Source of the DNA: Thiemannella venezuelensis
GTDB lineage: Bacteria; Actinomycetota; Actinomycetes; Streptosporangiales; Streptosporangiaceae
Direction of reading: 5' to 3'
Assembly (NCBI RefSeq): GCF_014203605.1
Contig: NZ_JACHJJ010000027.1
Span: forward strand, 33,217-97,216
DNA length: 64,000 nucleotides
Under the pieces are notes generated by a model. The model did not search any database and was not told the origin of the DNA. It was given only the letters and a program-made list of their open reading frames with translations. Shown in pieces: positions 24,033 to 46,605 of this stretch. A program made the translations under genes and the position numbers. Position 1 is the stretch's first letter; every line of letters starts with the position of its first letter.

Positions 24033-24977
24033 TCACCGGATCCGGGCGTCCCGGATGGAAGCCATGCTCCACAGCCGCACCGTGCCACCCGCATCGGGAG
24101 CGGCCAGCAGATGCCCCCGGGGGTGGAAGGCCAGTGAGGAGACATGCCCCGTCTGGCCGCTCAGCGGCTCCCCGGCGGGCCGGACGGTCGCGGTGTCCCA
24201 CCGCCGCACCGCGAGGTCGTCACCGGCGGTCGCGAAGAACCGGCCGCCGGGGTGGAAGGCCACCGCCCAGACGTGGTCCCCGCGATGGCCGCGCACCGGT
24301 TCGCCGACCGGGCAGCCGGTCGTGACGTCCCACAGTCTCACCTGGTTCCGGTCGTAACCGGCGGCGGCCAGCAGGCGTCCGGCGGGGTGGAAGGCCACCG
24401 CGTGCACGGACCCGCTGTGATCGCCCGGCAGGCGGCAGGCGGACCGACCGCCCCCGACCTCCCACAACCGCACGGTACGGCCCGCGGCGCAGGCCAGCAG
24501 GCCTCCGTCGGCGGAGAAGGCCACCGCGTGGACGGGGTCGCCGTGGTCGCCCAGCGCTTCCCCGGCGGGCTGAAGGGTGTCGGTGCGCCACAGCCGTACC
24601 CTCCCGTCCTGGCCCGCACTGGCCAGCAGGTGGCCGCCGGGGTGGAAGGCCAGCGCGGTGACGCCCCCGGTGTGACCGCCCGGCGGTTCGCCGGCGGTGC
24701 GGAAGGCGGCGGTGCGGAAGGCGGCGGTGCGGAGCACCCGGACCGCGCCGTCCGACCAGCCGGTGGCGACCAGGTGGCCCCGGGGATGGAAGGCCACCGC
24801 CCAGGCCTGTTCAACCGGATCGGCCAGGGACCGGCCGACGGCGTGACCGGTGGCGGTGTCCCACAGGCGCACGGTCCCGTCCTCCCCCGCGACGGCGAAA
24901 CAGCCGCCTCCGGGGTGGAAGGCCACATCCGCCGGGGCGCAGCGCCCGATCCGAACGTCCCGGAAAGGAGAAGTCAT
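24033..24977 (-). CDS. Seven-bladed WD40 repeat protein
   Basis: The 314-residue protein consists almost entirely of seven WD40 repeats, each with an (A/L)AFHPxGxLLA core and ending VRLW. Seven repeats close one beta-propeller, a protein-interaction scaffold. No catalytic domain is attached, unlike the usual kinase-WD40 fusions of actinobacteria. Between repeats 2 and 3 a 15-bp duplication encodes RTAAFRTAAFRTAGE, a recent slippage. TATCCT lies 8-9 nt before ATG 24977 and no Shine-Dalgarno sequence is visible, so a leaderless start is chosen over the longer open frame. Confidence 0.88.
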   Translation of the reverse strand: MTSPFRDVRIGRCAPADVAFHPGGGCFAVAGEDGTVRLWDTATGHAVGRSLADPVEQAWAVAFHPRGHLVATGWSDGAVRVLRTAAFRTAAFRTAGEPPGGHTGGVTALAFHPGGHLLASAGQDGRVRLWRTDTLQPAGEALGDHGDPVHAVAFSADGGLLACAAGRTVRLWEVGGGRSACRLPGDHSGSVHAVAFHPAGRLLAAAGYDRNQVRLWDVTTGCPVGEPVRGHRGDHVWAVAFHPGGRFFATAGDDLAVRRWDTATVRPAGEPLSGQTGHVSSLAFHPRGHLLAAPDAGGTVRLWSMASIRDARIR

Positions 24978-25118
24978 ATCGATCGGAGGATAGCGCCGTC
25001 CCGCCGGCGGGCGGGACCACCCGCATCGCCGACCTGCACGTCCTCGCCCCGCGGCGGCAGAGCGCCCACCTGCGGCCCGCCGCGGCCGATCCGGAGCGCT
25101 CCGCCGGGCGGACACGCC

Positions 25119-26234: not shown

Positions 26235-26269
26235 AACGCGCTTCAGGCCGTCTGAGAAACGGCCCTCTG

Positions 26270-26342
26270 TGGAGCTATGGGGATTCGAACCCCAGACCTC
26301 CTCCATGCCATGGAGGCGCGCTACCAGCTGCGCCATAGCCCC
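26270..26342 (-). tRNA. tRNA-Ala(GGC), copy 2
   Basis: This 73-nt gene is identical to copy 1 over the mature tRNA, with anticodon GGC and no encoded CCA. TAAGAT upstream (near 26390) may be the -10 of its promoter. The trailer, including the two hairpins, is also conserved. Confidence 0.97.
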
Positions 26343-26459: not shown

Positions 26460-26487
26460 TGTCACGCGGGAAGGACCGTGATACGTC
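26460..26487 (+). promoter_or_regulatory. ECF41-type promoter of the first sigma gene
   Basis: TGTCACG (26460-26466), 17 bp, CGTC (26484-26487), then 8 nt to the ATG at 26496. The two boxes match the published ECF41 target motif (TGTCACA and CGTC). The identical arrangement precedes the next gene at 27384-27411. The sigma factor therefore appears to transcribe its own gene, as a near-leaderless mRNA. Confidence 0.8.
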
Positions 26488-26495
26488 CTGGATCC

Positions 26496-27383
26496 ATGGC
26501 CGTCGAACGCTTCGAGCACCACCGCGACCTGCTGACCGGGGTCGCCTACCGGATCCTCGGCACCGTCACCGACGCCGAGGACGTCGTACAGGAGGCCTGG
26601 CTGCGCTGGTCGGGCGTGGACGCCGCCGCGGTCGAGAACGACAGGGCCTACCTGATCAGGGTGGTCACCCGGCTCTCCATCGACCGGCTCCGGCGGATCG
26701 GGGCCCGGCGGGAGACCTACGTCGGGGAGTGGCTGCCCGAGCCGGTCGCCACGGCTCCCGGGGTGGCCGAGCGGGTCGAGCTGACCACCTCGGTGGAGCT
26801 CGCGCTGCTGGTGGTGCTGGAGACGCTGTCCCCGCTGGAGCGGGCGGTGTTCGTGCTGCGGGAGGCGTTCGGCCTGCCGTACGCGGAGATCGGCGAGGCG
26901 ATCGGCCGCAGCGAGGCGACGGCCCGGCAGCTCGGGCGGCGGGCCAAGCGGCACGTCGAGGAGGGCCGGCCGAGGTTCGACGTGGACCGGGCCAGGCGCC
27001 GCGAGATCACCGAGCGCTTCATCGGCGCCGCGGCCGGCGGCGACCTGGACGGGCTGATCTCGATGCTCGCCGCCGACGTCACGCTGGTGGCCGACGGGGG
27101 CGGGAAGGTCAAGGCCCCGCTGCGGACCCTGACCGGCGCCGGGAAGGTCACCCGCTTCCTCGCCGCGATCACGACCGAGGCGGGGATCCGGCGGTTCCTG
27201 GAGTCGGCGGGCGCCGAGGCGGCCGGCGGGCTCACCGTGGAGACGGCCGAGGTCAACGGCGCCCCGGCGGTCGTGGCGGCCGCCGGCGGCCGGCCGGTCG
27301 CGGTGTTCTCGCTGGTGGTCAGGGACGGCCTGATCGAGACGATCTACCTGCTCGCCAACCCGGAGAAACTGACGCGTCTGTGA
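26496..27383 (+). CDS. ECF41 (SigJ-like) sigma factor with SnoaL-like domain
   Basis: This 295-residue sigma factor has sigma-2 (LTGVAYRILGTVTDAEDVVQ), the ECF41 linker YVGEWLPEP, sigma-4 (LPYAEIGEAIGRSEATARQL) and a fused NTF2/SnoaL-like regulatory domain with the diagnostic DGGGK and C-terminal NPEKL motifs. In this group the C-terminal domain, not an anti-sigma factor, controls activity. It has its own ECF41 promoter and sits 36 bp before a flavoprotein gene with the same promoter. This matches the ECF41 habit of neighbouring a carboxymuconolactone decarboxylase, oxidoreductase or epimerase gene. Confidence 0.95.
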   Translation: MAVERFEHHRDLLTGVAYRILGTVTDAEDVVQEAWLRWSGVDAAAVENDRAYLIRVVTRLSIDRLRRIGARRETYVGEWLPEPVATAPGVAERVELTTSVELALLVVLETLSPLERAVFVLREAFGLPYAEIGEAIGRSEATARQLGRRAKRHVEEGRPRFDVDRARRREITERFIGAAAGGDLDGLISMLAADVTLVADGGGKVKAPLRTLTGAGKVTRFLAAITTEAGIRRFLESAGAEAAGGLTVETAEVNGAPAVVAAAGGRPVAVFSLVVRDGLIETIYLLANPEKLTRL

Positions 27384-27411
27384 TGTCACGGACGCGTCCG
27401 CGGGCTGCGTC
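27384..27411 (+). promoter_or_regulatory. ECF41-type promoter of the flavoprotein gene
   Basis: TGTCACG (27384-27390), 17 bp, CGTC (27408-27411), 8 nt, ATG 27420: exactly the geometry found before the sigma gene. It starts at the base after the sigma stop codon. The downstream flavoprotein is thus the likely target of the adjacent ECF41 factor. Confidence 0.82.
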
Positions 27412-27419
27412 GTGAGGGC

Positions 27420-28583
27420 ATGAGACGACAGATCACCATCATCGGCGGCGGCCTCGCCGGGCTGACCGCGGCCATCGCGTGCGCCGAGGGCGGCGCCGCC
27501 GTCACCCTCCACGAGGCCCACCGCGCCCTGGGCGGGCGGGCCCGCTCGTCCGCCGCGCCGTACATCGCCAACGACGGCACGCACGTCTTCTACTCCGACG
27601 GCGAGCCGTGGCGCTGGATGGCCGCGCGGAAGCTGGTCCAGCCGTTCCGCAGGCCCACGCTCGGCGAGCTCGCGCGGAGCCGGTTCCGGTACGGCGGCCG
27701 CCTGGCCCTGACCCCTCCCTGGTCTCTGGTGAGCGCGCTCACCAAGCGGAAGGCGGTGGCCCCGGTGGACCGGGACTTCCGGAGCTGGGCCGCCGGGCGT
27801 TTCGGCGAGGAGGCCATGCGGGCGGCCTGCGGGCTCGTCGGCGTCATCACCTACGACGCCGACCCGGGGCGGCTGTCGGCCGCGTTCGTCTGGGAGCGGG
27901 CGCTGCGGGCGAGCGCGCCGCAGTACCCGGCCCCGCGCTACGTGGTCGGCGGCTGGCAGCGGGTGGTCGACCGGATGGCCGATCACGCGCGCGGGCTCGG
28001 CGTGCGGATCGAGACCGGTTCCCGGGCCGACCGCCTGCCGGAGGACACGCCCGTGATCGTCGCGACCTCGCTGGACGCGGCCAGGGCGCTGCTGGGCGAC
28101 GAGTCCCTGCGCTGGGAGAGCGGCCGGGCGGTCCTGCTCGACCTCGGGCTCACCCGGAGTCCGAGGGACGTGTTCTTCGCCTCGGACCTGGACGAGGGCG
28201 GGTTCGTCGAGCAGTACGGCCTGGCGGACCGCACGCTCGCCCCGGCCGGGCACACGCTCGCGCAGCTGGAGATGCCGCTGCGGGCGGGCGAGGCCAGGGC
28301 CGGAGGGCTCGCCCGGCTGGAGCGCCTGGCCGACCTCGCCCTGCCCGGCTGGCGGGAGCGCACCACCTGGCGGCGGGAGTCGGTGGCGAACGGCCGCAGC
28401 GGGGCCCTGGACCTGCCCGGCGTCTCGTGGCGGGACCGCCCGGCGGTCGACCGGGGCGACGGCGTCTGGCTGTGCGGAGACTCCGTCGCCGCTCCCGGTC
28501 TGCTCAGCGAGGTCTCCACGCACAGCGCCCTGGCCGCGGCCCGGGCCGCGCTGCGTGCCGTGGGCGCGCCCGTGGCTGCCTGA
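27420..28583 (+). CDS. FAD-dependent oxidoreductase, target of ECF41 sigma
   Basis: This 387-residue amine-oxidase/phytoene-desaturase-like flavoprotein has an N-terminal ITIIGGGLAGLTAAIACAEG dinucleotide fold, LHEAHRALGGRARSS and a C-terminal GVWLCGDSVAAPGLLSEVST motif for FAD. The substrate is unknown. ATG 27420 lies 8 nt after the CGTC box of an ECF41 promoter, so its mRNA is probably almost leaderless and its expression tied to the sigma factor encoded just upstream. It is the oxidoreductase partner expected of ECF41 loci. Confidence 0.9.
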   Translation: MRRQITIIGGGLAGLTAAIACAEGGAAVTLHEAHRALGGRARSSAAPYIANDGTHVFYSDGEPWRWMAARKLVQPFRRPTLGELARSRFRYGGRLALTPPWSLVSALTKRKAVAPVDRDFRSWAAGRFGEEAMRAACGLVGVITYDADPGRLSAAFVWERALRASAPQYPAPRYVVGGWQRVVDRMADHARGLGVRIETGSRADRLPEDTPVIVATSLDAARALLGDESLRWESGRAVLLDLGLTRSPRDVFFASDLDEGGFVEQYGLADRTLAPAGHTLAQLEMPLRAGEARAGGLARLERLADLALPGWRERTTWRRESVANGRSGALDLPGVSWRDRPAVDRGDGVWLCGDSVAAPGLLSEVSTHSALAAARAALRAVGAPVAA

Positions 28584-46497: not shown

Positions 46498-46532
46498 AAC
46501 GTGCTCCAGGCCGTTTCGAGAACGGCCCGCTG

Positions 46533-46605
46533 TGGAGCTATGGGGATTCGAACCCCAGACCTCCTCCATGCCATGGAGGCGCGCTACCAGCTGCGCCATA
46601 GCCCC
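46533..46605 (-). tRNA. tRNA-Ala(GGC), copy 3
   Basis: This 73-nt gene is identical in mature sequence to copies 1 and 2, with anticodon GGC and no encoded CCA. An A/T-rich upstream segment with TATGCT (about 46645-46650) probably holds its promoter. Confidence 0.97.

Follow-up and report, generated by a model that had tools for sequence, protein, structure and literature searches.

The ECF41 sigma factor gene and its flavoprotein neighbor

In the window, a 64,000-nucleotide stretch of Thiemannella venezuelensis DNA, two adjacent genes on the plus strand encode a sigma factor (positions 26496–27383) and a FAD-dependent oxidoreductase (27420–28583). Judged from its sequence, the first gene product, a protein of 295 amino acids with sigma2, sigma4 and a C-terminal extension, is an ECF41 sigma factor. 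Profile, Pfam and structure matches agree: the protein scores 328 bits against TIGR02957 (cut-off 323) and 312 against the SigJ model NF007214 (cut-off 271), Pfam finds sigma region 2 and region 4, and residues 1–293 align with the structure of Mycobacterium tuberculosis SigJ (PDB 5xe7, E 9e-57), an ECF41 factor which, compared by protein alone, has the same full-length architecture. WLPEP, DGGGK and NPEKL are all present in the translation, with WLPEP in the linker and a motif-bearing extension of about 100 amino acids or more; WLPEP and a large extension are characteristic of the ECF41 group. A Pfam search of the protein called no SnoaL domain. The earlier note had placed this sigma factor in the ECF41 group from the DNA letters, and these matches bear it out.

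The second gene, assigned by profile and Pfam matches, encodes 387 amino acids and is the "O" partner of the ECF41 locus. Its product matches NAD_binding_8 and FAD_oxidored, with weak similarity to amine-oxidase and HpnE/CrtI-like families, and its sole match to a solved structure is weak and limited to the FAD-binding start of the protein. An enzyme of the partner class expected for ECF41 loci, a FAD oxidoreductase, therefore lies directly 3′ of the sigma gene, as had been proposed. No anti-sigma gene is found next door; the remaining neighbors seen are a tRNA and, on the minus strand, an unrelated gene.

The tRNA, tRNA-Ala(GGC) at 26269–26342 on the minus strand, is divergent from and directly upstream of the ECF41 gene and lies outside the circuit discussed below. 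It is one of three tRNA-Ala(GGC) genes within 44 kb (2538–2611, 26269–26342 and 46532–46605, on the minus strand), each of which sits within a shared stretch of ~160–180 bp whose conserved downstream part can form a hairpin. A minus-strand protein gene at 24033–25115 contains internal repeats resembling WD40-type beta-propeller repeats, and within it the DNA of 24069–24306 matches that of 24462–24693.

Two promoter sites with identical distances to their start codons

The sequence TGTCACG-N17-CGTC-N8-ATG occurs twice on the plus strand, at 26460–26498 before the sigma gene and at 27384–27422 before the flavoprotein gene. In the first site, P1, the −35 element TGTCACG occupies 26460–26466 and the −10 element CGTC occupies 26484–26487, within the wider conserved GTGATACGTC. 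In the second, P2, the −35 element (TGTCACG, 27384–27390) abuts the sigma gene stop codon TGA (27381–27383) and the −10 element (CGTC, 27408–27411) lies upstream of the flavoprotein gene. Both sites have a 17-nt spacer and 8 nt between CGTC and ATG, and all three distances agree between the two. The coordinates, motif and distances given in the earlier note were correct, as both sites were found again in the sequence. The motif, of the form TGTCACA/G-N16 ± 1-CGTC at the target genes, also matches the published ECF41 promoter, which was defined from 285 sequences with a spacer of 16 ± 1 nt (Wecke et al., 2012; PMC3426412).

The extended GTGATA that precedes the P1 −10 element is missing from P2, whose strength may therefore differ from that of P1. 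There is also a GAGGG-like stretch 2–3 nt upstream of the flavoprotein ATG, which could help in translating a read-through message.

How often such motifs arise by chance depends on whether the start codon is included. In the window, TGTCACG-N15..19-CGTC has three matches where shuffled sequences predict 0.40, and none of 100 shuffles reached three. Pattern searches of the whole genome (8.18 Mb) returned 33 matches to the looser TGTCAC-N17..19-CGTC, against 12 for the reversed control, so the loose motif alone is only modestly enriched. When the distance to the start codon is fixed, the pattern TGTCACR-N16/17-CGTC-N8/9-ATG occurs only at P1 and P2, and the reversed pattern gives no match. The expectation that the motif would not be equally common at random positions thus holds for its start-locked form and only weakly for the loose one. 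The 33 loose sites, at many unrelated places in a GC-rich genome, are what could be said for regarding the repeat as a chance match or a local duplication with no regulatory meaning. We give that explanation a negligible probability, as start-locked matches are confined to these two genes in the genome, occupy the same positions in dozens of species whose spacer sequences are unrelated, and leave a footprint at the level of codons (see below). The conservation data rule it out.

Conservation of promoter position among relatives

Orthologues were drawn from the genomes of 149 relatives and from named genomes; the closest named orthologue is that of Planobispora takensis (80%). For the sigma gene, orthologues of at least 59.5% identity provided 54 distinct upstream regions, and 45 of these contain the strict motif 8–9 nt before the start codon (36 at 9 nt, 9 at 8 nt). 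Among the nine without it, six have near matches at the same place that differ by one or a few changes (L193, L077, L185, L171, L061 and L146), one (L051) has a more degenerate motif and two have none. A few orthologues, such as L084, lack P1 altogether. The P1 −10 element is embedded in a wider conserved GTGATACGTCT. For the flavoprotein gene, the strict motif is present in 39 of 56 distinct upstream regions, 14 at 8 nt and 25 at 9 nt. These loci are kin, and the counts are not independent events.

Across orthologous promoters the spacer is 16 or 17 nt long and its bases vary freely. The seventh base of the −35 element before the sigma gene is G in 27 cases and A in 18, and we accordingly rejected the G at this position as evidence. 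It had been argued that the exact repeat of the motif implies selection. The identity of the two copies is no evidence of this, since their variable bases differ freely among relatives; the constant distance to the start codon across relatives does support selection on the promoter-to-start distances.

The motif was absent upstream of the sigma gene in Streptomyces orthologues of 54–60% identity, and P1 is thus not a general trait of all related sigma factors. In these Streptomyces loci (L099–L155), a conserved TGGACA ... TGGGATGG lies a few nt before a GTG start codon; it looks like a housekeeping-type promoter, likewise very near the start codon.

P2 follows the flavoprotein start codon into the sigma coding sequence

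The 34 loci that contain both genes separate the position of P2 relative to the sigma gene from its position relative to the flavoprotein gene. The first base of P2 ranges from −41 to +287 nt relative to the sigma stop codon, and P2 invariably lies 8 or 9 nt from the flavoprotein ATG. P2 tracks the start codon of the flavoprotein gene rather than the sigma gene. It falls wholly within the sigma coding sequence in 21 of the 34 loci, and its −35 element does so in 26.

Where P2 is embedded, TGTCAC overlaps the codons that follow an NPDKM/L motif, as in AAG ATG TCA CGA. The overlapping serine codon is TCA in all 19 compact loci. L091, L172 and L183, whose flavoprotein gene is absent or degenerate, have TCC or TCG instead, as does L062, where that gene is displaced by ~0.8 kb; the exception is L089, which retains TCA with no adjacent flavoprotein gene. 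With different comparison sets, Fisher p values for this contrast range from 1e-4 to 4e-7; since the loci are related, they are indicative only. Constraint on the protein alone might have kept TGTCAC at the 3′ end of the sigma gene, and we rejected this explanation on the basis of codon choice, with L089 as the exception. The use of TCA constitutes direct evidence for selection on the DNA rather than on the protein.

At some loci the flavoprotein gene is degenerate or absent beside the sigma gene while P1 is retained. These comprise L172/L230 (genome G188) and the Nonomuraea loci L078–L080, L083, L098 and L116. Retention of P1 after loss of the flavoprotein gene indicates that the sigma factor is kept even where the usual partner does not adjoin it.

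Both messages are predicted to be leaderless

Because CGTC ends 8 nt before both ATGs and transcription cannot start upstream of the −10 element, a leader could be only a few bases long. At both genes the −10 element lies too near the start codon for an ordinary leader and no Shine-Dalgarno sequence is found, the combination by which leaderless genes are recognized. The calculated Shine-Dalgarno energies are −2.2 kcal/mol for the sigma gene and −1.7 kcal/mol for the flavoprotein gene, compared with −8.5 kcal/mol for other flavoprotein homologues (p 2e-8). Those homologues that lack a start-locked motif have strong Shine-Dalgarno sequences, with TGTCAC further upstream.

The base immediately before the start codon is a pyrimidine at all 84 distinct sites (45 of 45 for the sigma gene, 39 of 39 for the flavoprotein gene), compared with 18 of 35 chance sites at a different distance (counted by hand). 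A pyrimidine at −1 fits transcription starting at the A of ATG; in M. tuberculosis, start sites are reported to have C or T as the preceding base and, most often, A at +1 (Cortes et al., 2013; PMC3898074). We therefore place the predicted transcription starts of the sigma and flavoprotein mRNAs on the plus strand at 26496 and 27420, each the A of ATG, ± ~2 nt. Both messages are predicted to be leaderless and translated without a Shine-Dalgarno sequence. The earlier suggestion that the two mRNAs start a base or two before their ATGs is thus upheld in so far as P1 and P2, with CGTC 8 nt from the start codon, allow no leader beyond a few bases; the start sites themselves are predictions. For the ECF41 factor RpoE9 of Sinorhizobium meliloti, the promoter sequence that contains the mapped start ends 9 nt past CGTC, which is a bound rather than an exact position.

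Could the short distance be a by-product, with translation starting downstream, or with the main transcript coming from an upstream housekeeping promoter, so that both messages have ordinary leaders? The ECF41 promoters of Bacillus licheniformis and Rhodobacter sphaeroides, which have 22- and 23-nt leaders and a ribosome-binding site, offer a precedent. Both ATGs, however, lie at the conserved beginning of their proteins, and a later start would intrude on the fold, removing part of the sigma2 domain or of the FAD-binding strand (ITIIGGG from residue 5). The lack of a Shine-Dalgarno sequence, the invariant pyrimidine before the start and the strong Shine-Dalgarno sequences of the leadered flavoprotein homologues also argue against ordinary leaders, which we consider improbable.

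Before the flavoprotein ATG, at window positions 27416–27419 and the orthologous sites, G is conserved at −4 (34 of 39) and −2 (32 of 39), which is not the case before the sigma ATG. These G residues are perhaps an aid to translating read-through mRNA or a discriminator signal.

On a tree of 53 flavoprotein rows, leaderless and leadered loci fall into strong clusters; three changes of state are needed, at least two of which are forced by well-supported branches. All leaderless loci with a readable gene order have the sigma gene followed by the flavoprotein gene. Leadered loci have the reverse order, or no neighboring sigma gene in the stretch examined, or the sigma gene first with a gap of ~80–110 nt before the flavoprotein gene. 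Two leaderless loci, L224 and L225, are nested in a clade of leadered ones and point to either a second origin or a reversal.

Related promoters in this genome and in other families

Among 150 genomes of the family, the start-locked pattern (N8–9) has 119 matches, compared with 24 for the reversed control and 35 for N12–13. Many of these genomes have exactly two matches, one at each of the sigma and flavoprotein genes and separated by ~0.9–1.7 kb. Among the matches listed, with an ATG within 30 nt, the distances from CGTC to ATG peak at 9 nt over background; our claims of conservation lean on the orthologue analysis rather than on this histogram. Elsewhere in the class, 268 genomes from other families yield 74 matches, compared with 17 for controls (rows counted by hand), and those that are readable precede ECF41 genes, an NmrA-like gene, short-chain dehydrogenases and other enzyme genes. 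In one other actinomycete family (f21), a small DnaJ-domain-like gene is preceded by TGTCACA-N16-CGTC-N8-ATG (L257, L259, L261 and L262); no ECF41 gene was found within 1.5 kb of it, and it is a possible further ECF41 target.

The genome from which the window comes has further ECF41-like sigma genes with the same −35 type. At one locus (L033, G000:C1 near 307,760), TGTCACA-N16-CGTC-N8-GTG precedes an ECF41 gene, and the reading frame after that gene resembles, from its translation, a CxxC carboxymuconolactone decarboxylase. At another (L032, G000:C15 near 99,640), an ECF41 gene is followed by a gene whose translation is NmrA-like and which is preceded by TGTCACG-N17-GTTC-N8-ATG, with GTTC as the −10 element. 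From these sequences, each partner class seems to be represented in the genome by one pair, and the distance to the start codon is 8 nt in all of them.

Since the paralogous loci share this geometry, assigning P1 and P2 to the adjacent sigma factor is a prediction, and cross-reading is possible; the earlier wording, that the two promoters fix the regulon of this factor, was too strong given the paralogues with the same −35 type and the two loci with the same geometry. Another ECF41 paralogue could read P1 and P2, in which case there would be no autoregulatory loop. Several ECF41-like genes are available for such cross-talk, and two of their loci share both the TGTCAC −35 element and its distance from the start codon. 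Against it, P1 and P2 accompany this particular sigma orthologue in relatives, P2 is kept 8–9 nt from the flavoprotein start where that gene closely follows the sigma gene and mostly decays when the gene is lost, and characterized ECF41 factors target their own neighbor alone. We regard cross-talk as unlikely, if a little less so than ordinary leaders.

Discussion

We propose, with a probability of roughly 0.84, that the locus is an autoregulated ECF41 two-gene module with start-locked promoters and leaderless messages. The ECF41 sigma factor would guide RNA polymerase to P1, before its own gene, and to P2, before the FAD oxidoreductase gene, seemingly its sole targets, both promoters conforming to TGTCACR-N16/17-CGTC placed 8–9 nt before the start codon. 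Transcription would begin on, or a few bases from, the A of ATG, giving two leaderless mRNAs translated without a Shine-Dalgarno sequence, and the flavoprotein could additionally be made as a second cistron by read-through from P1. Selection fixes the distance of P2 from the flavoprotein start, even where this carries the promoter into the last sigma codons. By analogy, activation may occur through relief of inhibition by the C-terminal SnoaL-like domain. The motifs, their distances and conservation, the codon footprint, the decay on gene loss and the absence of Shine-Dalgarno sequences are observations; from them we infer recognition of both promoters by the sigma factor, the exact starts and leaderless translation.

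Much of this arrangement has precedents. As at the B. licheniformis (ydfG) and R. sphaeroides (RSP_0606) loci, there is an ECF41 sigma factor with a C-terminal extension, a promoter of the type TGTCACA (−35) and CGTC (−10) with a spacer of 16 ± 1 nt, and an adjacent partner gene (carboxymuconolactone decarboxylase, oxidoreductase or epimerase), which is the sole target at those loci. The partner gene was described as the only target, and in ~20% of loci in which the sigma gene precedes the partner, each of the two genes has an upstream copy of the motif (Wecke et al., 2012; PMC3426412). The promoters mapped in that study had 22- and 23-nt leaders and a ribosome-binding site, whereas here the distance is 8–9 nt at both genes with no ribosome-binding site, and P2 lies within the sigma coding sequence in most relatives. 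S. meliloti RpoE9 recognizes TGTCACA-N16-CGTC at one target operon, which there includes the neighbor of the sigma gene (PMC6180224); the RpoE9 partner lies upstream and is likely co-transcribed from one promoter, whereas here the sigma gene comes first and there are two promoters.

The leaderless form is also familiar in this phylum. Over a fifth of Actinobacteria genes are leaderless (Zheng et al., 2011; PMC3160421), and in M. tuberculosis the share among genes with a primary start is about a quarter (Cortes et al., 2013; PMC3898074). Like those genes, the two described here have a −10 element ~10 nt before the start codon and no Shine-Dalgarno sequence, and transcription, which starts on the start codon there, is predicted to do so here. 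The surveys mainly concern housekeeping TANNNT −10 elements, whereas here the promoters belong to an alternative sigma factor and the arrangement occurs at nearly every conserved site of the clade. The idea, raised in the earlier note, of an alternative sigma factor making leaderless messages is unusual when set against the 22–23-nt leaders described for ECF41, but leaderless mRNAs are common in Actinobacteria.

The ECF41 promoter and two-promoter loci are already known; what is added is the near-constant leaderless geometry, which is also present in other actinomycete families. In the open-licence literature, ECF41 and leaderless occur together solely in the S. meliloti start-site map, which mentions ECF41 once, in its reference list, and we found no description there of a start-locked, leaderless and partly gene-embedded ECF41 form. 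A more speculative idea, about which we have considerable doubt, is that the actinomycete ECF41 regulon is leaderless as a rule: the sigma and partner promoters would be held 8–9 nt from the start by selection so that the messages of this alternative sigma factor are readable by leaderless translation alone, tying their output to conditions that favor it.

The locus provides a concrete, testable regulon in which the position of a promoter as well as its sequence is selected, constraining the codons of the upstream gene. A promoter 8–9 nt before the start codon would be a simple rule for finding ECF41 targets in actinomycetes. Finally, since leadered and leaderless flavoprotein forms occur in related genera, they offer a natural comparison for asking why an alternative sigma factor makes leaderless messages.
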